Shown here: piece by piece, positions 17,814-35,700 of the stretch
How positions within the stretch are numbered: position 1 is the stretch's first letter
Layout of the letters: each line of letters begins with the position of its first letter
NCBI RefSeq assembly: GCF_903970965.1
Contig: NZ_CAJCKW010000002.1
Location: forward strand, 496,001-560,000
Length of the DNA: 64,000 bases
Source: Aureimonas sp. ME7
GTDB taxonomy: Bacteria; Pseudomonadota; Alphaproteobacteria; Rhizobiales; Rhizobiaceae
Direction: 5' to 3'
Made by a program: the position numbers and the translations under genes
The notes under the pieces: model-generated
Database searches by the model: none
Told to the model about the DNA's origin: nothing
What the model saw: only the letters and a program-made list of their open reading frames with translations

Positions 17814-19817
17814 ATGTTTGCCAATATGGATCTTCAGCAGTTGATCTTCGGGCGCCTGACGCTCGAAGCCATTCCCTATCACGACCCGATCCTGCTCGTG
17901 ACCTTCGCGGTGGTCGCCATCGGCGGCGCCGCGCTTCTGGGAGCGCTCACCTACTACCGGCTCTGGGGCTATCTCTGGACCGAATGGTTCACCACCGTCG
18001 ATCACAAGAAGATCGGCATCATGTACATCATCCTGGCGATCGTGATGCTGCTGCGCGGCTTCTCCGACGCGCTCCTCATGCGCGCCCAGCAGGCCATGGC
18101 CTTCGGCGCCAACGAGGGCTACCTGCCCCCGCACCACTACGACCAGATCTTCACCGCCCACGGCGTGATCATGATCTTCTTCGTGGCGATGCCCTTCGTC
18201 ACCGGCTTCATGAACTACGTGGTGCCGCTGCAGATCGGCACGCGCGACGTCGCCTTTCCGTTCCTCAACAACTTTTCGTTCTGGATGACGGCGGGCGGCG
18301 CCATCATGGTGATGTTCTCGCTCTTCGTCGGCGAGTTCGCGCGCACCGGCTGGCTGGCCATGCCCCCGCTCTCGGGGCCGGCCTACAGCCCCGGCGTCGG
18401 TGTCGACTACTACATCTGGGCGCTGCAGATCGCAGGCGTCGGCACGCTCCTGTCGGGCATCAACCTCGTCGTGACGATCGTCAAGATGCGCGCGCCGGGT
18501 ATGACCATGATGAAGATGCCGGTCTTCACCTGGACCTCGCTCTGCACCAACGTGCTGATCGTCGCCGCCTTTCCCGTTCTGACGGCGGTGATGGCCCTTC
18601 TTTCCATGGATCGCTACGTCGGGACGAACTTCTTCTCGAACGACCTCGGCGGCAATCCGATGATGTACGTCAACCTCATCTGGATCTGGGGCCACCCGGA
18701 GGTCTACATCCTGATCCTGCCGGCCTTCGGCATCTTCTCCGAAGTGGTGTCGACCTACTCGTCCAAGCGCCTCTTCGGCTACGCCTCGATGGTCTATGCG
18801 ACCGTCGTCATCACCATCCTGTCCTACCTCGTGTGGCTGCACCACTTCTTCACGATGGGCTCGGGCGCCAGCGTGAACTCGTTCTTCGGCATCACGACGA
18901 TGATCATCTCGATCCCGACGGGCGCCAAGATCTTCAACTGGCTGTTCACGATGTTCCGGGGCAAGATCCGCTTCGAACTGCCGATGCTGTGGACGCTCGG
19001 CTTCATGGTCACCTTCGTGATCGGGGGCATGACGGGCGTGCTTCTGGCCGTGCCGCCGGCCGACTTCGTCCTGCACAATTCGCTGTTCCTCGTCGCCCAC
19101 TTCCACAACGTCATCATCGGCGGCGTCCTGTTCGGCCTGTTCGCCGGGGTGAACTACTGGTTCCCGAAGGCCTTCGGCTTCAAGCTCAACGAGTTCTGGG
19201 GTAAGCTCTCCTTCTGGTTCTGGCTGACGGGCTTCTGGTTTGCCTTCGCCCCGCTCTACGTGCTCGGGCTCATGGGCGTGACACGCCGCGTCAATCACTT
19301 CGAGGACCCCTCGCTCCAGATCTGGTTCGTGATCGCGGCCTTCGGCGCCTTCCTCGTCGCACTCGGCATCGCCTCGTTCCTGATCCAACTCTATGTGAGC
19401 TTCCGCGACCGCGAGGAGCTGCGCGACGTGACGGGCGACCCCTGGGGCGGGCGTACGCTGGAATGGGCGACCTCCTCGCCGCCGCCGGCCTACAATTTCG
19501 CCTTCACGCCCATGATCCACGACGGCGACGCCTGGTGGGACATGAAGAAGCGCGGTTATGTCCGCCCGCTCACCGGCTTCCGCCCGATCCACATGCCCAA
19601 GAACACCGGGGCGGGCGTGATCCTGTCGGCGCTCTCGGTGGCCTGCGGCTTCGCCCTCGTGTGGTACATCTGGTGGCTAGCGGCCCTCTCCTTCGCCGCG
19701 ATCGTCGTCTACTCGATCGCCCATACCTTCAACTACAAGCGCGACTTCTACATCTCGGCCGACGAGGTGACGCGTACGGAAGAGGAGCGCTCGCAGCTCC
19801 TGGCGGCCAAGGTCTGA
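17814..19817 (+). CDS. cyoB: Cytochrome bo3 ubiquinol oxidase subunit I
   Basis: Catalytic heme-copper subunit, 667 residues with about 15 hydrophobic segments. Visible features are the low-spin heme ligand region [11 protein letters not shown] (about 112-122), the CuB/crosslink motif [15 protein letters not shown] (about 288-302), [11 protein letters not shown] (second and third CuB histidines) and [11 protein letters not shown] (heme o3 and low-spin heme histidines). It pumps protons while reducing O2 with quinol electrons. It lies 59 bp after cyoA and 4 bp before cyoC. Confidence 0.98.
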
Positions 19818-20843: not shown

Positions 20844-21637
20844 GCGATCTCCGGCGTCCGGCGCCGGAAACAGAGCTTGGCTCGGGCGCGCAGCGCCCGC
20901 GCAGCCGCCTCGCGCTCGGCCTTCTCGGCGCGGCGGGCCTCCTCGTCCTCGCCGTGCTCGTCGCACTCGGAACCTGGCAGGTCCAGCGCCTGTTCTGGAA
21001 GCTCGACCTCATCGCGCGCGTGGACGCGCGGGTTCATGCCGATCCGGTTCCCCCTCCCCCGCCCGCCGACTGGACGAGCTTCATGGGCGCCGACGCCGAG
21101 TATCGTCGGCTTCGCCTGGAAGGCACCTTCCGGCACGACCGGGAAACGCTGGTTCAGGCGGTCACGGAACTCGGCCCCGGCTTCTGGGTCCTGACCCCGC
21201 TCGTGGAGCGCAACGGCGCGACCTATCTCGTCAATCGCGGTTTCGTGCCGAACGAGCGCCGCTCGCCCGATACGCGGCAGGCGGGACAGGTCGCCTCGCC
21301 CGCGACGGTCATCGGGCTCGTGCGCCTCCCCGAGCCGGGCGGCGGCTTCCTGCGCCACAACGACCCCGCCGCCGACCGCTGGTTCTCGCGCGACGTGGCG
21401 GCCATCGCGCAGTCGAAGAACCTCGGAGCGGTGGCGCCCTTCTTCGTGGATGCCGACGCGACCGCCAATCCCGGCGGATATCCGATCGGCGGACTGACGG
21501 TGATCGCCTTCCGCAACCATCATCTCGTCTACGCCCTCACATGGTTCACCCTCGCCGCGATGCTGGCGGGCGCCGCCATCTGGATCGCGCGCAACGGGAG
21601 GCGGCGGCGGATCGCCGGCGCGGAGATCCACCCATGA
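20840..21637 (+). CDS. SURF1 family oxidase assembly protein
   Basis: A 265-residue SURF1 (Shy1) protein, involved in heme insertion into heme-copper oxidase subunit I. Two membrane helices near the ends flank a periplasmic domain. Family motifs are LGTWQVQRLFWKLDLI (about 44-59), GFWVLTPL, YLVNRGFVP (about 131-139), and a C-terminal NHHLVYALTWFTLA helix. The GTG start at 20840 overlaps the cyoD stop and is favoured by that coupling. The gene's stop overlaps the next gene by ATGA. Its place after cyoD suggests a role in bo3 maturation. Confidence 0.93.
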   Translation: MSDLRRPAPETELGSGAQRPRSRLALGLLGAAGLLVLAVLVALGTWQVQRLFWKLDLIARVDARVHADPVPPPPPADWTSFMGADAEYRRLRLEGTFRHDRETLVQAVTELGPGFWVLTPLVERNGATYLVNRGFVPNERRSPDTRQAGQVASPATVIGLVRLPEPGGGFLRHNDPAADRWFSRDVAAIAQSKNLGAVAPFFVDADATANPGGYPIGGLTVIAFRNHHLVYALTWFTLAAMLAGAAIWIARNGRRRRIAGAEIHP

Positions 21638-22986
21638 CGGCGGACGCCGCACGGTCGCCGCACACGAGGCTACGGCGCATGCGCGACCGCGTTCTCGGCG
21701 GCGCATCCCTCGAAGATCCGGCCGAGCGCAAGAACCTGTTCCTCCTGATCCAGCTGCGCTGGATCGCGGCGCTCGGACAGGTGGTCAGCATCGCCGTCGT
21801 GTCCTGGCTTCTGGGCGTCGAGCTTCCCACCCTGCCGATGCTCGGCATCATCGCGGCGCTGGTGCTTCTGAACCTTGCCAGTCTCGTGCGGCTCCGTTTC
21901 CGCTTCCGCGTGTCCAATCTCGAGCTCTTCGCGGCTCTCCTGATCGATGTCGCCGGCCTGACCGCCCAGCTCTATCTCAGCGGCGGCGCGGCGAACCCCT
22001 TCACCTTCCTCTACCTTCTTCAGGTGACGCTCGGCGCCATTCTCCTGAAGTCCTGGTCGTCGATCGCTCTCGTCGTCCTGACCATCCTCTGCTTTGCCGG
22101 TCTCACCGTCTTCTATCGTCCGCTCGACCTGATCGTGGCGGAAGGGCTCGGCTTCCTCAGCCTCCATATCCTCGGCATGCTGATGTGCTTCGCGTTGAAC
22201 GCGGCGCTTCTCGTCGTCTTCGTGAAACGCATCAGCCGCAATATCCGCGAGCGCGACGCGCGCCTCGCCGATCTCCGCCAGCATGCGGCGGAAGAGGACC
22301 ACATCGTGCGCATGGGTCTTCTGGCATCCGGCGCGGCGCACGAACTCGGCACGCCGCTGTCCACCCTCTCGATCATCCTCGGCGACTGGCGCCGCATGCC
22401 GGCCCTGACGAAGGACCCCGAGCTGGTGGACGAGATCGAGGCCATGCAGGCCGAGGTGAAGCGCTGCAAGTCGATCGTCACCGGCATCCTGGCCTCCGCG
22501 GGCGAAGCGCGCGGGCTGGAAGCGGGGGTGACCACCATGCACGCCTTCCTCGACGGGCTCGCGGCGGACTGGGGCGCCACGCGCCCGAACGCGCGCCTCC
22601 TCTACGACAACCGGTTCGACCAGGACCTGGAGATCGTCTCCGAATCCACCCTGCGGCAGGTCGTCTTCAACGTCCTCGACAACGCCTACGACGTGTCGCC
22701 CGGCTGGATCCGCTTCACGGCCGAACGCGACGGCGACCTCCTGCAACTGCGCGTGGAGGACCAAGGGCCCGGTTTCGACGAGACGATCCTTTCCGCCCTC
22801 GGCAAGCCCTACCAGTCCACCAAGGGCAAGCGCGGCGGCGGGCTCGGCCTGTTCCTCGTCTTCAACGTCGTGCGCAAGCTCGGCGGCAACGTGCGCGCGG
22901 TCAACCGACCGGATGGCGGCGCCGCCGTCGATCTGATCCTGCCGGTGGACGCGCTTTTGATCGCGGAAGGACGAGACGATGAGTGA
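21634..22986 (+). CDS. regB: Redox-sensing histidine kinase, RegB/ActS/PrrB type
   Basis: A 450-residue membrane sensor kinase. Six N-terminal hydrophobic segments include the quinone-associated RegB heptapeptide GGAANPF (about 116-122). The phospho-acceptor is His236 in AAHELGTPLSTLSII. Cys278 in VKRCKSI is placed like the redox-active cysteine of RegB. The ATP-binding domain shows NVLDNAYD, VEDQGPGFD and GGGLGLFLVFNV. ATG 21634 overlaps the SURF1 stop, and the gene overlaps the regulator by 8 bp. The family controls respiration, carbon and nitrogen fixation genes according to electron-transport redox state. Confidence 0.93.
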   Translation: MTADAARSPHTRLRRMRDRVLGGASLEDPAERKNLFLLIQLRWIAALGQVVSIAVVSWLLGVELPTLPMLGIIAALVLLNLASLVRLRFRFRVSNLELFAALLIDVAGLTAQLYLSGGAANPFTFLYLLQVTLGAILLKSWSSIALVVLTILCFAGLTVFYRPLDLIVAEGLGFLSLHILGMLMCFALNAALLVVFVKRISRNIRERDARLADLRQHAAEEDHIVRMGLLASGAAHELGTPLSTLSIILGDWRRMPALTKDPELVDEIEAMQAEVKRCKSIVTGILASAGEARGLEAGVTTMHAFLDGLAADWGATRPNARLLYDNRFDQDLEIVSESTLRQVVFNVLDNAYDVSPGWIRFTAERDGDLLQLRVEDQGPGFDETILSALGKPYQSTKGKRGGGLGLFLVFNVVRKLGGNVRAVNRPDGGAAVDLILPVDALLIAEGRDDE

Positions 22987-23509
22987 GCGCCTGCTGGTGG
23001 TCGTCGACGACGACGAAGCCTTCGCCAAGACGTTGAAGCGCTCCTTCGAGCGGCGCGAATACGAGGTGGTGGTGGCGCCCGACGCCGAGGCCCTGCGCGC
23101 GCTGCTCGACGAGCGGACGCCGGGCTTTGCGGTGGTGGACCTGAAGCTCGCCGGCGCGTCGGGTCTCGTTTGCGTCGAGATGCTGCACGAGCACGACCCG
23201 GACACGCTGATCGTGGTCCTGACGGGCTTTGCCAGCATCGCCACGGCCGTCGAGGCGATCAAGCTCGGAGCCTGCCACTATCTCGCCAAGCCCGCCAACA
23301 CGGACGACATCGAGAACGCGTTCGGCCGAAGCTCGGGCGACACGAGCGTCCCTTTGACGGGCCGTCCGACATCGATCAAGACCCTGGAATGGGAACGCAT
23401 CCACGAGGTGCTCGTGGAAACCGACTTCAACATTTCGGAAGCCGCGCGGCGTCTCGGCATGCACCGCCGGACGCTGGCCCGCAAGCTCGAGAAGCGCCCC
23501 GTCAAATGA
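22979..23509 (+). CDS. regA: Response regulator, RegA/ActR/PrrA type
   Basis: A 176-residue two-domain regulator. The receiver domain (residues 1-120) has the acidic pocket VVVDDDEAF, phosphorylation site Asp54 in VVDLKLAG, and Lys in LAKPAN. A short linker leads to a Fis-type helix-turn-helix (EAARRLGMHRRTLARKLEKR), the strongly conserved RegA DNA-binding end. It overlaps regB by eight bases, giving a coupled sensor-regulator pair directly downstream of the quinol oxidase genes it probably helps regulate. Confidence 0.95.
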   Translation: MSERLLVVVDDDEAFAKTLKRSFERREYEVVVAPDAEALRALLDERTPGFAVVDLKLAGASGLVCVEMLHEHDPDTLIVVLTGFASIATAVEAIKLGACHYLAKPANTDDIENAFGRSSGDTSVPLTGRPTSIKTLEWERIHEVLVETDFNISEAARRLGMHRRTLARKLEKRPVK

Positions 23510-23530: not shown

Positions 23531-24574
23531 TCAGGCGGCGCGCAGCGAGGATGCCGGCTTCAGGTTGGCCTCGGTGATGGTGCGGTCGTCTTCCAGCGAA
23601 CGCGCAGGCACCAGCCCGGCCTTCTGAAGCTCGCCGTGATAGGCGCGCACCGCCTCCTCGGGCGCGAGCGCGCCGTCGGCGACATGGCGCATGGTGGCGA
23701 TCATGGCGAGCGGCGATTCCGCGAGATTGATCTTGCGACCGAACAGAGCGACGCGCGCGCCGTACTTCTCGGCCTGCGCCACCAGTTCGAACGTGTCGCG
23801 CGCGGTGCCGGCGCCCCCGCCGAGAACGCCGACCACCAGCGTCGAATCGAACGAGGCCAGTTCCTCCAGCGCCTTCGGACCGTTGTAGACGATCTTCAGG
23901 AACTCCGGTCGGTTGGCCTTCGAAACACCGGCGAGCGAGCGCAGAATGCAGTCGTTCATGTATTCGCCGAGCGCATCGCGATCGAGATCCAGCGGGACGT
24001 TCGGATTGAACACCTCGTAGAAATACTTGAACTCGTTGGCGGCGGCATCGCGGCGGAAATCGGCGAAGGCTTCCAGCGAACGGATGTCGGCGTCGAAATC
24101 GTTGTTGAACGTCACCGAATAAAGGCCGAGATCGGTGCCCTTCACCGGCGCGCCGGGCTGCGGCACCTCCGATCCGTAGCGCACCTGCGGCAGGTGCGCC
24201 GTGCGGAACGGGTGGGAGGGTCGGCACACGTAGGTTTCATGGCGCACCCCGCCCCAGCAGTCGGTGGTTTCGTTGGCTCGGATGGCCGGCTTGACCGCGC
24301 TGCCATCGAAGGCCCCGCGGGCATGGAGTTCGTCGAGGTTCGAGACCGAGACGAGCATGATGTCGACGACATCCTGACGGACGATCTCCTCGATGGCTTG
24401 GAGAAACTCCTGGCGCGTGCGGCGCCGCCCCTGCGTTCCGTCCGCGTTGCGCAGGAACCCGGTGCCCGTGACCCCCGAGCCCATGTCGCTGTCCTTCGCG
24501 TCGGCGATGATGAAGTCGCCCGGCGCGTAGCGCCCGTCGCGGATCTTCTGAAGCTTCTGGTCCAAGCGTAGCAC
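23531..24574 (-). CDS. Class I aldolase-like protein (DeoC/LacD/FbaB superfamily)
   Basis: A 347-residue soluble protein I read as a beta/alpha-barrel aldolase relative. Supporting stretches are FIIADAKDSDMGSGVTGTG near the N-terminus, EFLKIVYNGPKALEEL (about 222-237), where a lysine is placed like the Schiff-base lysine of class I aldolases, and VVGVLGGGAGTARDTFELV followed by KYGARVALFGRKIN, a phosphate-binding pattern. The exact substrate is not clear. It is divergent from the ADP-dependent kinase gene with an AT-rich 280-320 bp region, and adjoins the polyol locus. A cleavage of fructose or tagatose 1,6-bisphosphate is possible. A canonical fructose-bisphosphate aldolase lies separately at 45942-46853. 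Confidence 0.6.
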   Translation of the reverse strand: MLRLDQKLQKIRDGRYAPGDFIIADAKDSDMGSGVTGTGFLRNADGTQGRRRTRQEFLQAIEEIVRQDVVDIMLVSVSNLDELHARGAFDGSAVKPAIRANETTDCWGGVRHETYVCRPSHPFRTAHLPQVRYGSEVPQPGAPVKGTDLGLYSVTFNNDFDADIRSLEAFADFRRDAAANEFKYFYEVFNPNVPLDLDRDALGEYMNDCILRSLAGVSKANRPEFLKIVYNGPKALEELASFDSTLVVGVLGGGAGTARDTFELVAQAEKYGARVALFGRKINLAESPLAMIATMRHVADGALAPEEAVRAYHGELQKAGLVPARSLEDDRTITEANLKPASSLRAA

Positions 24575-24666
24575 GGTTCGTTCCTCCCTGACTTCGAGAG
24601 CCGTGCGGACGCGCCGGAGGCAACCGTCGAAGCAAGGCCGGCGAGAGTCGTACTCCCAAATTATTC

Positions 24667-24691
24667 CATTGGAAATCGAAAAATTTCAATG
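24667..24691. promoter_or_regulatory. Imperfect inverted repeat upstream of the aldolase-like gene
   Basis: CATTGGAAAT (24667-24676) faces ATTTCAATG (24683-24691) with one extra G in the left arm, in a locally AT-rich stretch about 95 bases upstream of the aldolase-like start. It is a plausible regulator operator; the DeoR-family protein encoded at 31301 is a candidate ligand, by inference only. Confidence 0.4.
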
Positions 24692-24825
24692 AGTCCCGTT
24701 TAAGTCTGATGGACGGCGTAGTTGAACCCCATGCGAACGCAGCTCTCAAATCCCGCATCTACGAGGTTTCCTCGCCACGACTGAGCATCCGCAGCACGAC
24801 AATGCTGCGGGACAATGACGTTTCT

Positions 24826-24845
24826 TGATTGACTAATATCAATCA
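24826..24845. promoter_or_regulatory. Perfect inverted repeat upstream of the ADP-dependent kinase gene
   Basis: TGATTGA (24826-24832) and TCAATCA (24839-24845) form a perfect 7-bp inverted repeat with a six-base AT-rich spacer, 44 bases before ATG 24890. The position suits an operator for the plus-strand polyol operon. It shares the TCAAT core with the other repeat in this region. Confidence 0.5.
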
Positions 24846-24889
24846 GAAACCCGAATGTGACCGAGATTGGAAATTCGGTTGGCGCTGGG

Positions 24890-26149
24890 ATGATGATCGA
24901 TACCATTGCGAACTGGCATGACGCCTATGCCGCGCTGGCCACCCGGCTGCCGTCGCTTGCCGAAACGGCGCCGCTGACGCTTTGCGGCATGAGCGCCTGC
25001 GTGGATGCCAAGATCGAGCTTGGGCGCGCGGCAGCGCTCTGGTCGGCCGAGACCGCCGAGGCGGTGTCCTTCGCCGCCATGCTCAAGGATCGCGTCGCGC
25101 GAGGTGTCGGCGGCGAGGTGCGGGTGGAATGGGCCGGTGGGCCGGCATGGCTTGCCGAACATGTCCCGGCCGCCTACGCGCTGGGCGGTGTCGGACCGCA
25201 GGCGGGATGGGTGCTGACGACGCTGGGCGCGCCCGCGCTCGTCAATCTGGCCGACCGCAGCCGCCACATGCTGGCGCAACTGCCGCCGAACCTTCTCCTG
25301 TCGGACGGCGAGCGCACGGTTCGTGCCCGCTCGGTGCAGCCGCGCGGCGAGCGCCGGCCCGATATCTACATCTTCGAATACACCGCCGGGGTTCGCGTCG
25401 CGGACGTCGTTCCCCAGCGCTCCTCTCGCATTATCGTGCGCTTCGGGGACCCGGGCCTCGAACACGACGCCGCCTTCGATAGCCTCACCCCTCATCTGGC
25501 GACCAGTGCCGGGGCCGGGCTCGTGGCTGGCTTCAACTGCGTGCCGCCCGCCGATCTGGCTGATGAAACGAACCGGGTGTTCGGGTTGACCCGGCAATGG
25601 CGAAGCGCCGGCCTGCGGACCGTGCACCTCGAGATGAGCACCTATGACGGCGCGGCTGCGCGCGACAAGGTGCTGGAAGCGGCGCGGGGCGCTGTGACCT
25701 CGCTCGGCATGAGCCATTCGGAGATGCGCGATCTGGCGTCCGGCATCAGCGATGGCGACCTGCCGGAAGCCATGCGCGATCTGGCGCGTCGGCTGGACCT
25801 TCGACGGGTCTGCGTGCACGCCGACCATTGGGCGCTCGCGGTGACGCTGGACGACCCGGCGAGCGAGCGCGAAGCGTTGATCGCCGGCTGCCTTCTCGCC
25901 AGTGCCCGCTCGCAGGCAGGGCGCCCCGCCGCCCCGCGCTCCGTGCCCGACGGAGCGAGCTTCCATCCGTTGCCGTTCGATGGGGTTCGCGAAACGGACG
26001 GCTGGGCGACGATCGCCGTTCCCAGCCCCTATCTCGCCTCGCCCACCACGACGCTCGGGCTCGGCGATACGTTCACCGCCGGCTGCCTTCTGGTTTTGGG
26101 CTCGGCGGAGCGGATGTCGTCTCGGGAGGAACGACGCGCCCGCGCATGA
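24890..26149 (+). CDS. ADP-dependent phosphofructokinase/glucokinase family kinase
   Basis: A 419-residue ribokinase-fold protein of the ADP-dependent PFK/GK family, best known from archaea and animals. Matches: ALGGVGPQAGWV (substrate loop, like GGQAG), IFEYTAG, VAGFNCVP (where archaeal enzymes have SGxQ), the nucleotide-binding-region motif VHLEMSTYD (His246-Glu248), SLGMSHSEMRDL (archaeal enzymes: SLGxNExEL), and the catalytic GLGDTFTAG with Asp393. It would phosphorylate a sugar or sugar phosphate using ADP. ATG 24890 was chosen; GTG 24857 is in frame but has no better ribosome site. It precedes the ABC transporter genes by 69 bp, so probably starts the operon. Confidence 0.75.
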   Translation: MMIDTIANWHDAYAALATRLPSLAETAPLTLCGMSACVDAKIELGRAAALWSAETAEAVSFAAMLKDRVARGVGGEVRVEWAGGPAWLAEHVPAAYALGGVGPQAGWVLTTLGAPALVNLADRSRHMLAQLPPNLLLSDGERTVRARSVQPRGERRPDIYIFEYTAGVRVADVVPQRSSRIIVRFGDPGLEHDAAFDSLTPHLATSAGAGLVAGFNCVPPADLADETNRVFGLTRQWRSAGLRTVHLEMSTYDGAAARDKVLEAARGAVTSLGMSHSEMRDLASGISDGDLPEAMRDLARRLDLRRVCVHADHWALAVTLDDPASEREALIAGCLLASARSQAGRPAAPRSVPDGASFHPLPFDGVRETDGWATIAVPSPYLASPTTTLGLGDTFTAGCLLVLGSAERMSSREERRARA

Positions 26150-26218: not shown

Positions 26219-27526
26219 ATGACGAGAATCCTGCTGGCGAGTCTGCTCGCCGCCGTATCGATGCCCGCGCTCGCGCAGACGACGCTGACCATCGCCACCG
26301 TCAACAACAACGACATGGTGGTGATGCAGCGGCTGTCCACCGAGTTCGAGAACGAGAATCCCGACATCAAGCTGAACTGGGTGGTTCTGGAGGAGAACAC
26401 GCTTCGCCAGCGCCTCACCACCGACATATCGACCAATGGCGGCCAGTACGACGTCATGACCATCGGCATGTTCGAAGCGCCGATGTGGGGCGAGCGCGGC
26501 TGGCTGAAAGCCTTCGACAACGTGCCGGCGGACTACGACCTCGACGATGTGTTCCAGTCGGTGCGCGACGGCCTGTCGTTCGACGGCAAGCTCTACGCCC
26601 TGCCCTTCTACGCCGAAAGCCAGATGACCTTCTATCGCAAGGATCTGACTGACAAGGCGGGCGTCACCATGCCCGAGCACCCGACATGGAAGGATATCGG
26701 CGAGGTCGGCGCCAAACTGCACGACCCGTCCAATGGCATCTATGGCGTGTGCCTTCGCGGCAAGCCGGGCTGGGGCGAGAACATCGGCCAGATCACGCCG
26801 GCGGCCAACAGCTTCGGCGCGCGCTGGTTCGACATGGACTGGAAAGCCCAGCTCGACAGCCCGCAATGGCACGAGGCGCTGACCACCTATACCGATCTCA
26901 TCAAGAACTACGGCCCGCCGGGCGCCTCGTCCAACGGCTACAACGAAAACCTCGCGCTCTTCGCCAGCGGCAAGTGCGGGATCTGGGTGGACGCCACCGT
27001 GTCCGCCGGGTTCCTGGCCGATCCCGACCAGAGCACGGTGATCGACAAGGTCGGCTACGCCTATCCGCCCTACGGCAAGTTCGACAAGGGCAGCCACTAC
27101 CTTTGGGCCTGGTCGCTGGCGGTGCCGGTCTCTTCCAAGTCGCCGGATGCCGCCAACAAGTTCATCTACTGGGCGACGTCCAAGGCCTATATCGATCTCG
27201 TGGCCAAGGACACGGGCTGGGCGACCGTGCCCCCGGGCACCCGCAAGTCGACCTACGACAACCCCGAGTACATCGAGGCCGCCCCTTTCGCCAAGCTGAC
27301 GCTGGAAACGATCCAGTCGGCCGACGTGAACGGCCCGACGCAGGAGCCCGTGCCCTATCGCGGCATCGGCTTCGTCGGCATCCCCGAGTTCCAGTCGATC
27401 GGAACCTCGGTCGGGCAGGAGTTCGGTGCCGTCGTCGCGGGGCAGAAGTCGGTGGACGACGCCTTGAAGGCCGCCCAGGACCTGACGACGCGCGCCATGG
27501 CGCAGGCCGGCTATCCGAAGAAGTGA
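26219..27526 (+). CDS. ABC sugar/polyol transporter, substrate-binding protein
   Basis: Periplasmic family 1 solute-binding protein, 435 residues. Residues 1-19 are a signal peptide (LLASLLAAVSMPALAQ). TTLTIATVNNNDMVVMQRLS starts the mature domain, and KDLTDKAGVTMPEHPTWKDI is typical of the family. It resembles the sorbitol/mannitol-binding proteins (SmoE type) of alphaproteobacteria. The start is preceded by AAGGGAGGAACGGG, a strong ribosome site. An intergenic hairpin follows, then two permease genes. The ligand is inferred to be a hexitol from the downstream enzymes. Confidence 0.9.
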   Translation: MTRILLASLLAAVSMPALAQTTLTIATVNNNDMVVMQRLSTEFENENPDIKLNWVVLEENTLRQRLTTDISTNGGQYDVMTIGMFEAPMWGERGWLKAFDNVPADYDLDDVFQSVRDGLSFDGKLYALPFYAESQMTFYRKDLTDKAGVTMPEHPTWKDIGEVGAKLHDPSNGIYGVCLRGKPGWGENIGQITPAANSFGARWFDMDWKAQLDSPQWHEALTTYTDLIKNYGPPGASSNGYNENLALFASGKCGIWVDATVSAGFLADPDQSTVIDKVGYAYPPYGKFDKGSHYLWAWSLAVPVSSKSPDAANKFIYWATSKAYIDLVAKDTGWATVPPGTRKSTYDNPEYIEAAPFAKLTLETIQSADVNGPTQEPVPYRGIGFVGIPEFQSIGTSVGQEFGAVVAGQKSVDDALKAAQDLTTRAMAQAGYPKK

Positions 27527-27646: not shown

Positions 27647-28537
27647 ATGGCGCTCGCTACCAACTCGGAAGGGATCGGCCCCAGGGTCGCCACGCGCCCG
27701 CTTCTGGCGCCCAGCGTCGGCCTCCTGCTCCTGTGGATGATCGTTCCCCTGGCGCTGACCCTGTGGTTCTCGGTCCAGCGCTACAACCTCCTGGATTCCT
27801 CGGTCGGAGGGTTCGTCGGCTGGGGCAACTATGCGTTCCTCCTTTCCGACCCGAACCTCGCCAACGCTCTTCTCAACACGGTCCTGCTCGTCGGCGGCGT
27901 GCTCCTCGCCTCGGTGATCGGGGGGCTTGCCTGTGCCGTCGCGCTCGATCAGGGCTTCCCGGGCCAGGGCGTCGCGCGCCTCCTGTGCATCGCGCCCTTC
28001 TTCGTCATGCCGACGGTCAGCGCGCTGGTCTGGAAGAACCTTCTGATGCATCCCGTGAACGGGCTCTTCGCCTACATCTCCCGTTCGCTCGGACTGCCCG
28101 TCGTCGACTGGTTCGCTCAAGTGCCGCTGACCTCGGTCGGCATCATCGTCGCCTGGCAGTGGATCCCCTTCGCGACGCTGATCCTCCTCACCTCGCTTCA
28201 GTCGCTCGACCGCGAGCAGATGGAAGCGGCGCGCATGGACGGGGCGCGCGGGCTCAAACTCTTCGCCTTCATCACCCTGCCCCATCTCGCCCGCTCCATC
28301 ACCATCGTGGTGATGATCGAGACGATCTTCCTCCTGTCGGTCTTCGCCGAGATCCTGGTGACGACGGCCGGGGGTCCGGGCAACGCTTCCACCACGCTGC
28401 CCTTTCTGATCTACAAGACGGCGCTTCTCGACTACGACGTCGGCGGCGCGTCGGCCGGTGGGGTTCTGGCCATCATCCTTGCCAACATCGTCGCCTTCTT
28501 TCTCGTGCGCACGATCTCGCACAATCTGGATCGCTAG
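27647..28537 (+). CDS. ABC sugar/polyol transporter permease 1 (MalF/SmoF type)
   Basis: A 296-residue inner membrane permease with six hydrophobic segments. The EAA loop that contacts the ATPase reads EAARMDGARGLKLFAFITLP (about 196-215). FSVQRYNLLD and SLGLPVVDWF match sorbitol/mannitol MalF-type permeases. ATG 27647 is preceded by TCGGGAATCGCTG, a modest ribosome site. It is followed after 2 bp by the partner permease gene. Confidence 0.9.
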   Translation: MALATNSEGIGPRVATRPLLAPSVGLLLLWMIVPLALTLWFSVQRYNLLDSSVGGFVGWGNYAFLLSDPNLANALLNTVLLVGGVLLASVIGGLACAVALDQGFPGQGVARLLCIAPFFVMPTVSALVWKNLLMHPVNGLFAYISRSLGLPVVDWFAQVPLTSVGIIVAWQWIPFATLILLTSLQSLDREQMEAARMDGARGLKLFAFITLPHLARSITIVVMIETIFLLSVFAEILVTTAGGPGNASTTLPFLIYKTALLDYDVGGASAGGVLAIILANIVAFFLVRTISHNLDR

Positions 28538-28539
28538 CC

Positions 28540-29361
<822 letters not shown>

Positions 29362-29370
29362 GAATCGCAT

Positions 29371-30471
29371 ATGGCAACCGTCACCTTGAGGGACATTCGT
29401 AAGAGCTATGGCGCGCTGGAGGTCGTGAAGGGCGTCGATCTCGAGATCCGGGATCGCGAGTTCGTCGTCCTCGTCGGGCCGTCCGGCTGCGGCAAGACCA
29501 CGATGCTGCGCATGATCGCGGGGCTGGAGACGATCACCGCCGGCGAGCTGTCGATCGACGGGCGGCGGGTCAACGAGGTGGAGCCGGACGAGCGCGGGCT
29601 CGCCATGGTGTTCCAATCCTATGCGCTGTACCCGCATATGTCGGTCGCCGACAACATGGGGTTCGCCCTGCGCATGGCCGGCGTCGGCAAGGCCGAGCGC
29701 GCGGCCAAGGTGCGCGATGCCGCCCGCATCCTCCAGCTCGAGCCCTATCTCGACCGCCGCCCCGGCCAGCTTTCGGGCGGCCAGCGACAGCGCGTGGCGA
29801 TTGGGCGCGCGATCGTGCGCAGCCCCAAGGTGTTCCTGTTCGACGAGCCCTTGTCCAATCTCGACGCGGCGTTGCGCATGCAGATGCGCATCGAGCTTGC
29901 ACGCCTGCACCGCGAGCTCGACGCCACGATGGTCTACGTCACCCACGATCAAGTGGAGGCGATGACGCTGGCGGACCGGATCGTCGTGGTGAACGGCGGA
30001 CGGATCGAGCAGGTCGGCGCGCCGATGGAGATCTACTCGTCGCCCGCCACGACCTTCGTCGCCGGCTTCATCGGCGCCCCGAAGATGAACCTCCTGGCCG
30101 GGCGCCTGACCAGCTCGGCCGTCCTCCTGGAAAACGGCGCCGCCATTCCGCTCGGCATCAGGCCGGACATCACCGAGGGCGAAACCGTGACGCTCGGCGT
30201 GCGGCCGGAAGCGCTTCTCGTCGTGCCGGACGGCCCCTTGAGTGGCCGCGTCACCGTGGTGGAGCATCTGGGTGGTGAAACGCTCACGCATATCGACATC
30301 GGCGATGGCCATCTCGTCACGGTCAAGACGGCGGAACAGGCCCCCGCCGCGATCGGCGACGCGGTGCGTCTGCGCGCCGACCCCGCCCGCATCCACCTCT
30401 TCGGGGCCGACGGGCGAGCCGTCCGCAGCTCCGCTCCCTCCGCCACCCTTCTCAGCCAAGGCATGCACTGA
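29371..30471 (+). CDS. ABC sugar/polyol transporter ATP-binding protein (UgpC/MsmK/SmoK type)
   Basis: A 366-residue ATPase of the MalK/UgpC subfamily. Walker A is GPSGCGKTT (about 36-44), the signature LSGGQRQR (about 134-141), Walker [13 protein letters not shown], and the switch His in YVTHDQ. Residues 240-366 are the C-terminal OB-fold regulatory region ([10 protein letters not shown]). It completes the transporter encoded by the three previous genes. Its stop overlaps the start of the dehydrogenase gene (TGATG). Confidence 0.94.
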
Positions 30472-31244
30472 TGTACAAAGAAAAATCCGACCTTTCGGGA
30501 CGCACGGCCTTCATCACCGGCGGCGGGCGCGGCATCGGTCTTTGCACAGCCGAAGCGCTTCTGGAGCACGGCGCCCAGGTGGTGATCTCGGACCGGGACC
30601 CGGCCGTTCTGGACGCCGGCCGCGCGGAACTGGCCGAAAAGGGATGGCAGGTCGACGTCGTGGCGCTCGACGTCACCGACTCCAAGGCGGTCGCGCGGGC
30701 GGCGGCGGAGGCCAACGACCGGCATGGTGGAATCGATATCCTGATCGCCAATGCCGGCATTGCCTGGCCCGACACGCCGGGCGAATCCATGTCGGACGAA
30801 ATCTGGCACAAGGTCGTCGATGTCGATCTGAACGGCTGCTACTGGTCCTGCCGCGAGTTCGGCCGCGCCATGCTGGAGCGCGGGCACGGCTCCATCGTCA
30901 CCGTCGGCTCCATGTCGGGCCTCATCTCCAACAAGCCGCAGCGGCAGGTCCACTACAACGCCGCCAAGGCCGGCGTTCACCACATGACCCGCTCGCTCGC
31001 CGGCGAGTGGGCCGAGCGGGGCGTGCGCGTCAACGCGGTGGCCCCGACCTATGTCGACACGGTCATGTCGCGCGGCGGCTTCACCGACGACACGCTGATG
31101 CCGACCTGGATGGAGTTCACGCCGATGAAGCGGCCGGCGCGGGCCGATGAGATCGCTTCCGCGATCCTCTTCCTCAGCACGGACGCCGCCAGCGCGATGA
31201 CCGGCTCGATCGTGACGGTGGATTGCGGCTATACCATCTGGTAA
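30471..31244 (+). CDS. Short-chain dehydrogenase/reductase, probable polyol dehydrogenase
   Basis: A 257-residue classical SDR. The cofactor motif is TGGGRGIG (about 16-23), the structural NAG motif IANAGIAW (about 91), and catalytic Tyr162/Lys166 in YNAAK with Ser in VGSMSG. ISDRD at the end of beta 2 carries an acidic residue, which favours NAD over NADP. It is coupled to the transporter ATPase gene, so it most likely oxidises the imported polyol at C2 or C5 to a ketohexose. Galactitol, altritol, sorbitol and mannitol are all possible; the sequence does not decide. Confidence 0.85.
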   Translation: MYKEKSDLSGRTAFITGGGRGIGLCTAEALLEHGAQVVISDRDPAVLDAGRAELAEKGWQVDVVALDVTDSKAVARAAAEANDRHGGIDILIANAGIAWPDTPGESMSDEIWHKVVDVDLNGCYWSCREFGRAMLERGHGSIVTVGSMSGLISNKPQRQVHYNAAKAGVHHMTRSLAGEWAERGVRVNAVAPTYVDTVMSRGGFTDDTLMPTWMEFTPMKRPARADEIASAILFLSTDAASAMTGSIVTVDCGYTIW

Positions 31245-31300
31245 CGGCCGTGAACGTGCCCCACTCTGGCCATCCCAAACGAGTGTCGTCAGGACCCGCC

Positions 31301-32107
31301 ATGGACGCTCCGACCAAACGCGTCGAAATCATCCCCGCCAAACGGCGGGCGATGATTCTCGACTATCTTAAGGTCAACGGGACGGCCTCGATCGGCGAGC
31401 TGACGGATTCGATCGGCGGCTCGCAGTCCACCATCCGCCGCGATCTGGAGCAGCTGACCGAAGGGGGCTATCTCGAGCGCACCCATGGCGGAGCGCTCCT
31501 GATCCCGCCGCTGCGCGCCACGTTCGAGCGCGAACCCGCGCTCAATGCGCACTATCAGCATCGCCAGAAGGTGGCGATCGGGCTGGAAGCCACGAAGCGG
31601 CTGAACGGCGGCGAAAGCGTCATCTTCGATTCCAGCTCCACCGTGATCGAGGTGGTCCATGCGACGGCGGCACGGCGCATTCCGCTCACAGTCGTCACCA
31701 ACAATATCGAGATCGCACGCATCGGCTCGAGCGTGCCGGAATGGCGGGTCATCGTGACCGGCGGGACCCTGCGCCCCGGCTCCGACATCCTGCTCGGGAA
31801 ACCGGGCGAGCCCTTCTTCGAGACGATCCACGCCGATATCTGCTTCACCGGCGCCTACGCTGTGACGGGTGCGCTTCTGACCGACGCGTCGATGGAAGTC
31901 GCCTCCATCAAGCGCGCCATGATCGCCTCGGCTCGGCGCACGGTGCTCGTGGTGGATTCCACCAAGTTCCAGGCGCCCGCCTTCTGCACCTTCGCGCAGC
32001 TCGGGCAGATCGGCGAACTCATCACCGACGAGGGGATCGACCCCGACATCGGCGCGGGGATCCGCGCCAACGGCACCGAACTGACCGTGGTGTCGCTGCC
32101 GAACTAA
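31301..32107 (+). CDS. DeoR/GlpR family transcriptional regulator
   Basis: A 268-residue sugar-phosphate responsive regulator. The N-terminal DeoR HTH is at residues 10-65 (KRRAMILDYLKVNGTASIGE then STIRRDLEQL and ERTHGGALL, the DeoR fingerprint). The C-terminal sensor domain has FDSSSTVIEV, VTNNIEIA, TGGTLRPGS and a late DSTKF motif. It probably represses the surrounding polyol genes and is relieved by a phosphorylated intermediate. It lies within the operon, 56 bp after the dehydrogenase gene, and before a strong hairpin. Confidence 0.92.
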   Translation: MDAPTKRVEIIPAKRRAMILDYLKVNGTASIGELTDSIGGSQSTIRRDLEQLTEGGYLERTHGGALLIPPLRATFEREPALNAHYQHRQKVAIGLEATKRLNGGESVIFDSSSTVIEVVHATAARRIPLTVVTNNIEIARIGSSVPEWRVIVTGGTLRPGSDILLGKPGEPFFETIHADICFTGAYAVTGALLTDASMEVASIKRAMIASARRTVLVVDSTKFQAPAFCTFAQLGQIGELITDEGIDPDIGAGIRANGTELTVVSLPN

Positions 32108-32280: not shown

Positions 32281-33231
32281 ATGAAGACTGTGGTGACGGC
32301 CGGCGAGATCGTCGTCGAGATCATGGCGACGCGGGTCGGACAGACCTTTCTGGAGCCGGGCCCGCTGATCGGCCCCTTCCCCTCCGGCGCGCCGGCGATC
32401 TTCATCGATCAGGTCGGCCGCCTCGGCCAGCCCTGCGGCATGATCTCCAGCGTCGGCGCGGACGACTTCGGCACGATCAACATCGAACGCCTGCGCGCCA
32501 GCGGCGTCGATACGTCCGCGATCGCGGTCCACGAGGGCGCGGCCACGGGAAGCGCCTTCGTGCGCTACAACGCCGACGGCAGCCGCAACTTCGTCTACAA
32601 CATCGCCCACAGCGCCTGCGGTCTCATGGCACTCGATGGCGCGGGCGAGGCGCTGATCGAGCGCGCGGACCATGTCCACGTCATGGGCTCGTCCCTGTTC
32701 TCGGCGGGTGCGATCGAGGTCACGAAGACGGCCGTCGAGCGGATCAAGGCACGCGGCGGCACCCTGTCCTTCGATCCCAACGTTCGGCCCGAGCTTCTGG
32801 CGGACGGCATGCGCGAAGCGCTTCATTGGATGGCGGCGCGATGCGACGTGTTCCTGCCGAGCGGCGCCGAGCTGTTCCTGTTTACGCGCTCGCAGGTGGA
32901 GGAGGACGCCGTCGCCGAAATCCTGGCGGGCGGATGCTCCGTCGTGGTCCTCAAGAAGGGAAGCGAGGGCGCCGTCCACTACGACCGGGCCGGGCGAACC
33001 GCCCTTCCCGCATTCCGGGCGGAGGAGGTCGACCCGACGGGCGCGGGAGACTGTTTCGGGGCGGGTTTCGTGTGCGCCTGGCTGCGCGGCGAAGCGCCTG
33101 CGGATGCCCTGCGCCTCGCCAATGCCTGCGGCGCGCTGGCGGTAGCCAAGAAGGGACCGATGGAAGGCACCGCCTTCCGCGCCGAGATCGACGCCTTCCT
33201 CGCCAGCCAGAACGAGGTCGATGCGGCATGA
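32281..33231 (+). CDS. PfkB family sugar kinase, probable tagatose kinase
   Basis: A 316-residue ribokinase/PfkB kinase. The N-terminal substrate region is AGEIVVEIMA, with GRLGQPCGMISSVGADDFG (about 47-65). The C-terminal signature DPTGAGDCFGAGF holds the catalytic base Asp257 and anion hole. In Agrobacterium alditol loci a kinase in this setting, next to a GatZ-type protein, is a tagatose kinase; that specificity is transferred by context, not proven by residues. ATG 32281 follows GCGGAGGGAAAACG. Its stop overlaps the GatZ gene (ATGA). Confidence 0.8.
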   Translation: MKTVVTAGEIVVEIMATRVGQTFLEPGPLIGPFPSGAPAIFIDQVGRLGQPCGMISSVGADDFGTINIERLRASGVDTSAIAVHEGAATGSAFVRYNADGSRNFVYNIAHSACGLMALDGAGEALIERADHVHVMGSSLFSAGAIEVTKTAVERIKARGGTLSFDPNVRPELLADGMREALHWMAARCDVFLPSGAELFLFTRSQVEEDAVAEILAGGCSVVVLKKGSEGAVHYDRAGRTALPAFRAEEVDPTGAGDCFGAGFVCAWLRGEAPADALRLANACGALAVAKKGPMEGTAFRAEIDAFLASQNEVDAA

Positions 33232-34514
33232 GCACGGCGGCCGACCGTCTCCGCGCCCTTCCCGCGCGTCATGCCGCCGGCGAACATGCCGGCATCGCCT
33301 CGATCTGCTCGGCCCATCCGCTGGTGATCGAAGCCACCCTGCGCCATGGTCTCAAGACCGGGCGCGACGTCCTGATCGAGGCGACCTGCAATCAGGTCAA
33401 CCAGGACGGCGGCTATACCGGCATGACACCGGCCGACTTCCGCCGCTTCATCGAGCGGATCGCCGCCACGGTCGGCTTCCCACCGGAGCGGCTGATCCTC
33501 GGCGGCGATCATCTCGGCCCCAACCCGTGGAAGCATCTGTCTGCGGCACAGGCCATGGCAAAGGCGGAGGCGATGATCGAAGCCTATGCCGCCGCCGGGT
33601 TCGCCAAGCTCCATCTCGACGCTTCCATGGGATGCGCCGGCGAGCTCCCGGCGCTCGCGGACGAGATCGTCGCCGAGCGCGCGGCGCAGCTGGCGGCCCG
33701 CGCCGAGGCGGCCGTACGAAGCGGCGGACTGGTGCCGCCGGTCTATGTGATCGGAACCGAAGTTCCGGTGCCCGGCGGCGCGACGCACGCGCTGGATCAC
33801 CTGGAGATCACCGACCCCGCCGCCGTCCGCCGCACGATCGAAGTGCACGAGATGGCGTTTCGGGCTCTGGGCTTGGAGGAGGCCTTCTCGCGCGCCATCG
33901 CGGTGGTGGTGCAGCCCGGCGTCGAGTTCGGCCATTCCGACATCGTCGTCTACCAGCCGTCGAAGGCGGAAGGTCTGACGCAGTTCCTGCGAGATCAGCC
34001 GCGCTGGGTGTTCGAAGCCCATTCCACCGACTATCAGCCCGGCTCCGCCTTGCGCTCCCTCGTCGGCGACGGCTTTGCCATCCTGAAGGTCGGGCCTTGG
34101 GCGACGTTCGCGCTGCGCGAAGCGCTCTACGGCCTGTCCGCCATCGCCGACATCCTCCACCCCGCGCCATCCGAGCCTTCGCTGCCCGATGCGATGGAGG
34201 CGCTGATGCAGGAGGAGCCGGGCAACTGGCGGAACTACTGCCACGGTTCGGCCGAAGAGCAGCATATCCAGCGCCATTTTTCCTATAGCGACCGCATTCG
34301 CTACTACTGGCCCGACGGCCAAGCCCAGGAGGCGGTGGAGCGGTTGATGCGTCGCCTCGGCGACCGGCCGATCCCCGTTCCACTCGTCGGCCAGCACCTT
34401 GGCAAGCTTCATGCGGCGGTCGCCTCCGGCGCGCTGGAGCCGACGGCGCGCGAGCTTCTCCTGGCAAGCGTGACGGCGGTTCTCGACATCTACGACGCGG
34501 CGACACGGCCGTGA
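33228..34514 (+). CDS. GatZ/KbaZ family protein, probable tagatose-6-phosphate 4-epimerase
   Basis: A 428-residue member of the GatZ/KbaZ family. Characteristic stretches are GIASICSAHPLVIEA, IEATCNQVNQDGGYTGMTP (about 44-62), LGGDHLGPNPW (about 89), KLHLDASMGCAG, YVIGTEVPVPGG (about 175) and EAHSTDYQPGSALR. In enterobacteria GatZ is a partner of the GatY aldolase. No GatY or KbaY gene is present here, so a stand-alone enzyme is more likely. Family knowledge from Agrobacterium assigns such proteins as tagatose 6-phosphate 4-epimerases. It is coupled to the upstream PfkB kinase gene. Confidence 0.82.
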   Translation: MSTAADRLRALPARHAAGEHAGIASICSAHPLVIEATLRHGLKTGRDVLIEATCNQVNQDGGYTGMTPADFRRFIERIAATVGFPPERLILGGDHLGPNPWKHLSAAQAMAKAEAMIEAYAAAGFAKLHLDASMGCAGELPALADEIVAERAAQLAARAEAAVRSGGLVPPVYVIGTEVPVPGGATHALDHLEITDPAAVRRTIEVHEMAFRALGLEEAFSRAIAVVVQPGVEFGHSDIVVYQPSKAEGLTQFLRDQPRWVFEAHSTDYQPGSALRSLVGDGFAILKVGPWATFALREALYGLSAIADILHPAPSEPSLPDAMEALMQEEPGNWRNYCHGSAEEQHIQRHFSYSDRIRYYWPDGQAQEAVERLMRRLGDRPIPVPLVGQHLGKLHAAVASGALEPTARELLLASVTAVLDIYDAATRP

Positions 34515-34548: not shown

Positions 34549-35700
34549 ATGAACCGCATTGGGATCGGCGTCATCGGCTGCGGCAACATCGCCATGACCT
34601 ACATGCGCAACGCCGCCCTGTTTCCAGGCGTCGAACTGCGCGCCTGCGCCGATCGGGCGCCCGAAATGGCCGAGCGGCGCGCGGCGGAATACGGCATCCG
34701 AGCCTCCAGCGTCGACGAACTCCTCGCCTCGCCCGAGATCGGTCTCGTGCTCAACCTCACCATTCCTGCCGCCCATCACGACGTGACCATGTCGGCGCTC
34801 TCGGCGGGCAAGCACGTCTTCACGGAAAAGCCGCTTGGCGTCACGGTGGCAGAGGGCCGGGCGCTGGTGGCGGAGGCGGAGCGGCGTGGGTTGAAGCTCG
34901 GCTCGGCGCCCGACACGTTCCTCGGCGCCGCCGGGCGCCGGGCACGCGCGCTCGTGGATGGCGGCGCGATCGGCAAGCCCGTAGCCGGCACCGCCTTCAT
35001 GATGGGGCGCGGCATGGAGCATTGGCACCCCAACCCGCAGTTCTACTACCAGCCCGGCGGCGGTCCGGTGCTGGACATGGGCCCCTACTACCTGACGGTG
35101 CTGGTCAACCTTCTCGGCCCCGTTTCGCGCGTCACGGCGCTCGCCGCCACGGGCGAGGCCGAGCGGCGGATCACCGCCGAAGGGCCGTTCCAGGATACCA
35201 CCTTTCCGGTCGGCACTCCGACGACGCTGCTGTCCCTTCTTCAGTTCTCCAGCGGCGCGATCGTGACCTTCGGCGCGTCGTGGGACGTGTTTCGTCATTC
35301 CAATCATCCGATCGAGCTTCACGGAACGAGCGGCTCGCTCCGCCTGCCCGATCCCGACACGTTCGGTGGGACAGTCTCGCTGTCGGACCGGGGCGCGGAA
35401 TGGGCGGATTTCGATACGGAAGGCTCCGACTTCGGTGCCCTCAACTGGCCCTTCGACGCACCGCGCCTTGCGAACTACCGGATGCTCGGCGTCGCCGATC
35501 TCGTCCGCTCGATCGAAACGGGGCGCCCGGCACGTGCGTCCGGCCATCTCGCGCTTCATGTCCTGGAGATCATGGAAGCGATCCTTCGCTCGGGCGAAAC
35601 GGGAGAGCCTGTAGCCTTGGAGGGTACGGCCGAACGGCCGGCAGCGCTCGGCGACGAGGAAGCGGCTTCGCTCCTGAGCCAACCGCGGGCCGCCGCATGA
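34549..35700 (+). CDS. Gfo/Idh/MocA family oxidoreductase
   Basis: A 383-residue NAD(P)-dependent sugar/polyol oxidoreductase. The Rossmann motif is GVIGCGNIAMTYMRN (about residues 5-19), the catalytic EKP motif is FTEKPLGVTV (about 92), and the C-terminal domain begins after GSAPDTFLGAAGR. The dimerisation half has GGGPVLDMGPYYLTVLVNLLG, typical of the family. No DeoR-like or transport role. It follows gatZ after 34 bp and is coupled to the next hydrolase gene. The substrate is probably a sugar or inositol-like compound related to the locus, but is undefined. Confidence 0.87.
   Translation: MNRIGIGVIGCGNIAMTYMRNAALFPGVELRACADRAPEMAERRAAEYGIRASSVDELLASPEIGLVLNLTIPAAHHDVTMSALSAGKHVFTEKPLGVTVAEGRALVAEAERRGLKLGSAPDTFLGAAGRRARALVDGGAIGKPVAGTAFMMGRGMEHWHPNPQFYYQPGGGPVLDMGPYYLTVLVNLLGPVSRVTALAATGEAERRITAEGPFQDTTFPVGTPTTLLSLLQFSSGAIVTFGASWDVFRHSNHPIELHGTSGSLRLPDPDTFGGTVSLSDRGAEWADFDTEGSDFGALNWPFDAPRLANYRMLGVADLVRSIETGRPARASGHLALHVLEIMEAILRSGETGEPVALEGTAERPAALGDEEAASLLSQPRAAA

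Follow-up and report, generated by a model that had tools for sequence, protein, structure and literature searches.

Linkage of bacterial ADP_PFK_GK-family sugar kinases to three kinds of aldolase, and a possible ketose 1-phosphate route for sugar alcohols in Aureimonas

The 64,000-nucleotide stretch of Aureimonas sp. ME7 DNA analyzed here (the window) carries a gene for a 419-residue sugar kinase of the ADP_PFK_GK family (24890..26149, + strand), which diverges from the gene of a 347-residue class I (DhnA/LsrF-like) aldolase (23531..24574, − strand) belonging to a family without a Pfam model, referred to below as aldolase A. Sugar kinases that use adenosine diphosphate (ADP) have been studied chiefly in archaea and animals. 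We find that the bacterial ADP-type kinases are steadily tied to catabolic cassettes containing one of three kinds of aldolase, an association that is new and that points to an undescribed breakdown of sugar alcohols into three-carbon units. For the window, we see nearly an even chance that the cassette serves the catabolism of an imported sugar alcohol, in which a polyol would be converted to a free ketose, then to a ketose 1-phosphate, and finally to dihydroxyacetone phosphate (DHAP) and an aldehyde.

The family of the window kinase and its linkage are firm. The protein scores 46.6 bits against PF04587 (ADP_PFK_GK), for which the gathering cut-off is 27, as the original prediction had anticipated from its motifs, and assignment to the ordinary ribokinase/PfkB family is ruled out by the lack of any PF00294 match at E ≤ 0.5. 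Structure prediction yields the two-domain ADP-kinase fold, the entire predicted fold being of the ADP type. Asp393, noted earlier within GLGDTF, aligns as the catalytic Asp of the GXGD motif, while Arg180, Glu248 and Glu278 correspond to Arg206, the Glu of HXE and the second Glu of DXXE, respectively; the Asp of DXXE is replaced by Ser275. The kinase falls below the equivalog models for ADP-specific phosphofructokinase (TIGR02045, 24.8 against a cut-off of 408.1) and ADP-glucokinase (NF010642, 38.8 against 387; NF010641, 18.2 against 554). Some bacterial relatives are already named “ADP-dependent glucokinase/phosphofructokinase” in databases, and the substrate given in such names may be wrong. 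We infer the substrate, the position phosphorylated and the use of ADP from sequence, the last from the family only.

The linkage was established in two surveys. In the first, GTDB species genomes were scanned with a 28-row kinase alignment and 80 of 100 relatives were kept, a sampling that favors relatives of the alignment rows. The 74 bacterial and 6 archaeal loci so obtained, some of them truncated, include up to 10 kb of flanking sequence and less at contig ends; linkage was counted by tblastn and not with our home-made gene caller, which produces shadow open reading frames (ORFs). An aldolase lies near the kinase in 73 of the 74 bacterial loci, the nearest within 7.6 kb: aldolase A in 40, a LacD-like aldolase in 5 and a class II aldolase in 28, with L013 (cut by a contig end) and L041 (in two pieces) included in these numbers. 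The LacD-like assignment is illustrated by L042 (NF009498, 225.5 against a cut-off of 184) and that of class II by L066 (TIGR00167, 268.4 against 215.6). The 74th bacterial locus, L055, stops right past the kinase, and genome G582, on a contig equally long, has aldolase A 1.3 kb further, beyond an ATPase gene. None of the three aldolase kinds was seen in the 6 archaeal loci, several of which lie on short contigs. The predicted kinase–aldolase pairing is therefore real and wider than had been guessed.

In the second survey, kinase and aldolase profiles were run separately on 347 genomes of the order, from organisms that are partly those of the first survey. The kinase profile gave 25 matches in 20 genomes; aldolase A was found in 57, although nine genomes had only weak partial matches to it. 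Of the 20 genomes with the kinase, 18 also have aldolase A, against 3.3 expected (hypergeometric P 9e-14, relatedness ignored), and an aldolase is located near 23 of the 25 kinase matches, 18 with aldolase A within 8 kb and 5 with a LacD-like aldolase (L114, L115, L116, L117, L133). Given the linkage in both surveys, a chance neighborhood of kinase and aldolase is rejected. Within the genus, a PF04587 kinase occurs in 8 of 21 genomes, with aldolase A adjoining in seven and a LacD-like aldolase in the eighth (L008). A class-wide PF04587 search of 289 genomes matched 4, and the kinases in three of these are archaeal-type; weak Pfam scoring of the present clade is perhaps behind this low count, and the 8 of 21 may also be an underestimate. 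L090, L091 and L092, from three small genomes within this class, have archaeal-type ADP_PFK_GK genes (235–262 bits) that are separate from the clade studied. L117 (G421:C4:62001-82000) has a kinase in each of two cassettes separated by about 10 kb, accompanied by a LacD-like aldolase and a short-chain dehydrogenase/reductase (SDR) in the first and by aldolase A in the second. Both aldolase kinds lie within 12 kb, and perhaps the two cassettes are for different substrates.

A quick maximum-likelihood tree was built from 77 kinases once fragments and duplicates had been removed, along with several copies from the genus and all rows of at least 88% identity. Six of the 77 rows serve as outgroup (three archaeal and three archaeal-type from the same class), and the labels of L117 and L118 were set by hand. 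One branch (SH-aLRT 100) sets off the 22 class II-linked rows, and another (98) sets off the 49 A/L rows, whose kinases pair with aldolase A or a LacD-like aldolase. Seven label changes occur across four labels including “none,” the label carried by L055 though aldolase A is seen in G582. LacD-like pairing is scattered in the A/L part, where the starred branches are compatible with one origin, and long branches make the placement unsure. The occurrence of three aldolase kinds beside one kinase family argues that the product of the kinase is the substrate of the aldolase and carries a phosphate at C1. A reading without the C1 phosphate, with the kinase acting as a glucokinase-type 6-kinase on a free sugar or ketose and the aldolase using another intermediate or cleaving a ketose 6-phosphate, appears quite improbable, as the aldolase families concerned are known as users of C1-phosphorylated ketoses and aldolases do not take glucose 6-phosphate.

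The genes that recur with the pair were examined at the 40 aldolase A loci, all alphaproteobacterial. A relative of the window SDR (at least 60% identity, anywhere in the locus) is present in 32, a DeoR relative (at least 55%) in 35 and a binding protein of the window type (at least 50%) in 9; structure comparison gave no polyol-specific match for the binding protein of the L029 cassette. Tagatose kinase and GatZ are each present in 4 of the 40, all Aureimonas. The core is thus the kinase, the aldolase, the SDR, DeoR and some ABC (ATP-binding cassette) transporter, with the tagatose genes added in Aureimonas. The expectation that the pair would be conserved with polyol genes holds for the polyol-type SDR. 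Tagatose 6-phosphate (T6P) as a general substrate is rejected, since tagatose kinase and GatZ accompany the pair only in Aureimonas. Another PfkB or FGGY kinase occurs within 6.5 kb in 16 of the 80 loci, all 16 bacterial (tblastn with few queries, some loci truncated).

In the window, the genes past the kinase all lie on the + strand. The first encodes a polyol-type ABC substrate-binding protein (26219..27526; PF01547) with 575 bits to PDB 4rya, “(Sorbitol)”. It is followed by two ABC permeases, recognized as ORFs (27647..28537, in an order with the kinase that several loci conserve, and 28537..29361, start approximate, its order likewise conserved in several loci), and by an ABC ATPase of the UgpC/MalK type (29371..30471; NF008653, 498.3 bits against a cut-off of 432). 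Next are the SDR polyol dehydrogenase (30471..31244), whose nearest PDB entry is 3awd (putative polyol dehydrogenase, 255 bits) and then 2wdz (galactitol dehydrogenase), and the DeoR-family regulator (31223..32107; PF00455/PF08220). The local additions are a PfkB tagatose kinase-like protein outside the conserved core (32281..33231; NF049991, 414.1, below the cut-off of 420) and a GatZ/KbaZ-like protein (33228..34514; TIGR02810, 613.2 against 568.8); a Gfo/Idh/MocA-type oxidoreductase (34549..35700; PF01408, PF22725) comes last. On the other side, a redox two-component pair resembling ActS/RegB and ActR/RegA (21634-23509; best NCBIfam models, below cut-off) adjoins the 3′ end of the aldolase gene, and ahead of it lies CyoB, subunit I of cytochrome o oxidase (17814-19817, above cut-off).

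The sugar site of the kinase was compared with the first fructose 6-phosphate (F6P) complex of the ADP-kinase family (6XIO, AncMsPFK). As described in PMC7948494, Lys179, Asn181 and Arg212 bind the 6-phosphate, the KM for F6P rises ∼1000-fold in the K179A and D36A mutants and ∼200-fold in N181A and R212A, and the glucokinases of the family have His at position 181. Some of the 130 kinase rows aligned here with the reference are fragments or duplicates. Equivalents of Asp36, Glu90, Gly114-115, Arg206, Glu282, Glu313, His360 and Asp471 are kept in the bacterial rows that cover the site, L053 departing in some. At the 6-phosphate positions, the aligned Lys179 is Lys in none of the bacterial rows, Asn181 becomes Ile, Val, Thr or His (Asn in L118_1 only), and Arg212 is lost (Arg in L032 only); the aligned Asn34 is mostly Cys. 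In the window kinase, these positions would be occupied by Pro157 at 179 (Asp158 if gapped), Ile159 at 181 and Gly186 at 212. The equivalent of Glu90 is Glu76, but Ile159 is found where glucokinases have His181, and His at 181 does occur in the kinases linked to LacD-like and class II aldolases. In this alignment the known 6-phosphate ligands are missing and the pocket has a partly glucokinase-like character, but basic residues at other positions are close by.

These observations bear on the route first proposed for the pair, in which ADP-dependent phosphorylation of F6P or T6P would give a 1,6-bisphosphate that the aldolase cleaves to DHAP and glyceraldehyde 3-phosphate, a local Embden–Meyerhof bypass in a genus without PfkA. 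The conserved pairing stands; the F6P or T6P substrate and the bisphosphate product are doubtful, because almost every bacterial member lacks the 6-phosphate ligands yet keeps the catalytic residues. The shortfall against the ADP-phosphofructokinase equivalog and the presence of tagatose kinase and GatZ in so few aldolase A loci also speak against it. In its favor, the ADP-dependent phosphofructokinases belong to the same family, and the surmised lack of phosphofructokinase is borne out at the genus level, PfkA (PF00365) being absent from all 21 genus genomes searched, the window’s included. Because other basic residues lie near the sugar site, we treat the bisphosphate route as the main rival, rather doubtful and far from negligible.

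The catabolic scheme through a ketose 1-phosphate would run as follows. The ABC transporter would import the free polyol, as the match to 4rya suggests, and the SDR would oxidize it to the free ketose. The kinase would then phosphorylate the C1 hydroxyl, probably with ADP as donor, and the DhnA-like class I aldolase would split the resulting ketose 1-phosphate through a lysine Schiff base into DHAP and an aldehyde, which for a hexulose would be glyceraldehyde; the DeoR-family protein would control the gene set. Conversion of a free ketose to its 1-phosphate is the simplest scheme given the loss of the 6-phosphate ligands, the ABC import, the polyol SDR and the rarity of a second kinase. The ketose could be any of several, since alditol dehydrogenases are shown in PMC12193009 to yield different ketoses. 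More broadly, these kinases and the undescribed class I aldolase family (or its LacD-like or class II substitute) may constitute a bacterial pathway from polyol or ketose through ketose 1-phosphate to trioses, consuming ADP and avoiding hexose 6-phosphates, a proposal that we hold as tentative and clearly short of an even chance.

Several points weigh against the ketose 1-phosphate scheme, some of them favoring the bisphosphate route directly. The mapping of the window kinase onto the reference was made at 17–18% identity, where a one-residue gap is possible at 179–181. In many rows the position just ahead of 179 is basic (Arg156 in the window kinase; mostly Lys in rows of the LacD/His181 type), and a new Arg occupies the S210 position in almost every clade A/L enzyme (Arg184 in the window kinase; Leu in L053); by their aligned positions, Arg156 and Arg184 could be alternative binders of a 6-phosphate. 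The LacD-like and class II partner aldolases have relatives with bisphosphate-based names, F6P is present in all cells, and 6-phosphates may also come from the products of the neighboring tagatose kinase and GatZ-like genes in Aureimonas. A ManA-like protein, which scores only 48.8 against a cut-off of 116.2, follows in 24 of the 28 class II loci (L060 being cut short) and hints at hexose 6-phosphates, and a triokinase was not noticed among the recurring neighbors, which were not annotated throughout. Fourteen retrieved aldolase A loci are free of the kinase (L119-L131, L135). In six of them (L119, L122, L123, L127, L128, L131) a PfkB kinase adjoins or is one gene off, which speaks for the ketose 1-phosphate scheme; in the other eight, PfkB was not seen beside the aldolase or the genes were unresolved. 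Finally, two of the 25 kinase matches in the second survey, in G373 and the second copy in G582 (L134), have no aldolase nearby. G373 has two aldolase A copies away from the kinase, one next to a DeoR regulator (L121). The G582 copy (L134, 4773-6041) is a divergent member of the ADP_PFK_GK family scoring 48.2 bits, and none of the three aldolases was seen in its vicinity.

A separate question, compatible with the other readings, is that of the donor. The enzyme might be an ATP-dependent ketose kinase on the ADP-kinase fold that has lost the use of ADP, which we regard as unlikely. The exchange of the DXXE Asp for Ser or Asn (the latter shared with certain archaeal rows), that of the HXE His for Tyr in actinobacterial L066 and the fact that sequence does not reveal nucleotide preference are consistent with such a change, while the retained equivalents of Arg206, His360, Glu282 and Glu313 and the ADP-type fold predicted throughout argue for ADP.

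Aldolase A, which had been described as a class I aldolase-like protein, has the predicted TIM-barrel fold of a class I aldolase; the DeoC/LacD profile (PF01791) gave no match, nor did any Pfam model up to E 0.5. Across 21 sequences, Lys227 (in FLKIxYNGP) is invariant, and GGG and GRK of GGGxGTxRD...FGRK are invariant or nearly so; from DhnA-family anatomy, we propose that Lys227 is the Schiff-base lysine and that the second motif is the C1-phosphate site. Identity is 11–14% to DhnA/LsrF-type chains and 8–13% to LacD chains. The structure alignments covered Foldseek-ranked entries only, so that absences there are uninformative. At E ≤ 0.001 the family takes in 7117 of the 7998 candidates scored, and most of the 120 matches listed are unnamed or “hypothetical protein.” An inverted repeat, GCAGCA...TGCTGC (24788..24811), in the divergent intergenic region between aldolase and kinase is a candidate operator; besides the window, L010, L011, L012 and L014 have it, L015 has a weaker form, and it was not seen in L016. 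Elsewhere in the same genome (L119, G000:C2:290000-307000), a paralogue of aldolase A with 49% identity is flanked on one side by a gene resembling ribose-type ABC permeases and on the other by a PfkB kinase.

With these results, an aldolase family that lacks a Pfam model gains a probable function and the bacterial ADP_PFK_GK kinases a testable substrate class, with a bearing on polyol degradation in Rhizobiales without PfkA. Our search of the open-access literature, which left subscription papers outside, found no description of a bacterial ADP_PFK_GK kinase–aldolase cassette. Bacterial members of the ADP-kinase family are known to exist, as stated in PMC7948494, and the one paper in the literature searched that names PF04587 reports no sign of it in genomes of the candidate phyla radiation (CPR).

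The archaeal ADP-dependent phosphofructokinases and glucokinases (AncMsPFK, 6XIO; TlGK, 4B8S; MjPFK/GK, 5OD2) share with the window kinase the predicted fold, the equivalents of Asp471, Arg206, Glu282, Glu313 and His360, the GG motif and Glu90. The window kinase differs in its ∼18% identity, in being some 35–70 residues shorter, in the loss of the aligned F6P-phosphate residues and in its setting among an ABC transporter, a DeoR regulator and an aldolase. Aldolase A is set apart from the DhnA/LsrF/archaeal class I fructose-bisphosphate aldolases and the LacD/YihT aldolases by its lack of a Pfam match. The LacC/LacD system has the same logic of kinase plus aldolase, and a LacD-like aldolase replaces aldolase A at some loci; unlike the window kinase, LacC is a PfkB kinase whose substrate is a 6-phosphate. 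The ketohexokinases of Haloarcula and human presumably belong to families other than ADP_PFK_GK, the Pfam family Khk (PF25270) being separate. In the sorbitol/mannitol route of Haloarcula hispanica, as outlined in PMC11519228, ABC uptake of the polyol, dehydrogenation to fructose and C1 phosphorylation parallel the scheme proposed here; a haloarchaeal ketohexokinase is described there as ATP-dependent, and in Haloarcula a 1-phosphofructokinase step, which our scheme does not include, precedes the aldolase. In the human KHK–aldolase B route, as summarized in the same paper, C1 phosphorylation is followed, as proposed here, by aldolase cleavage of the 1-phosphate.
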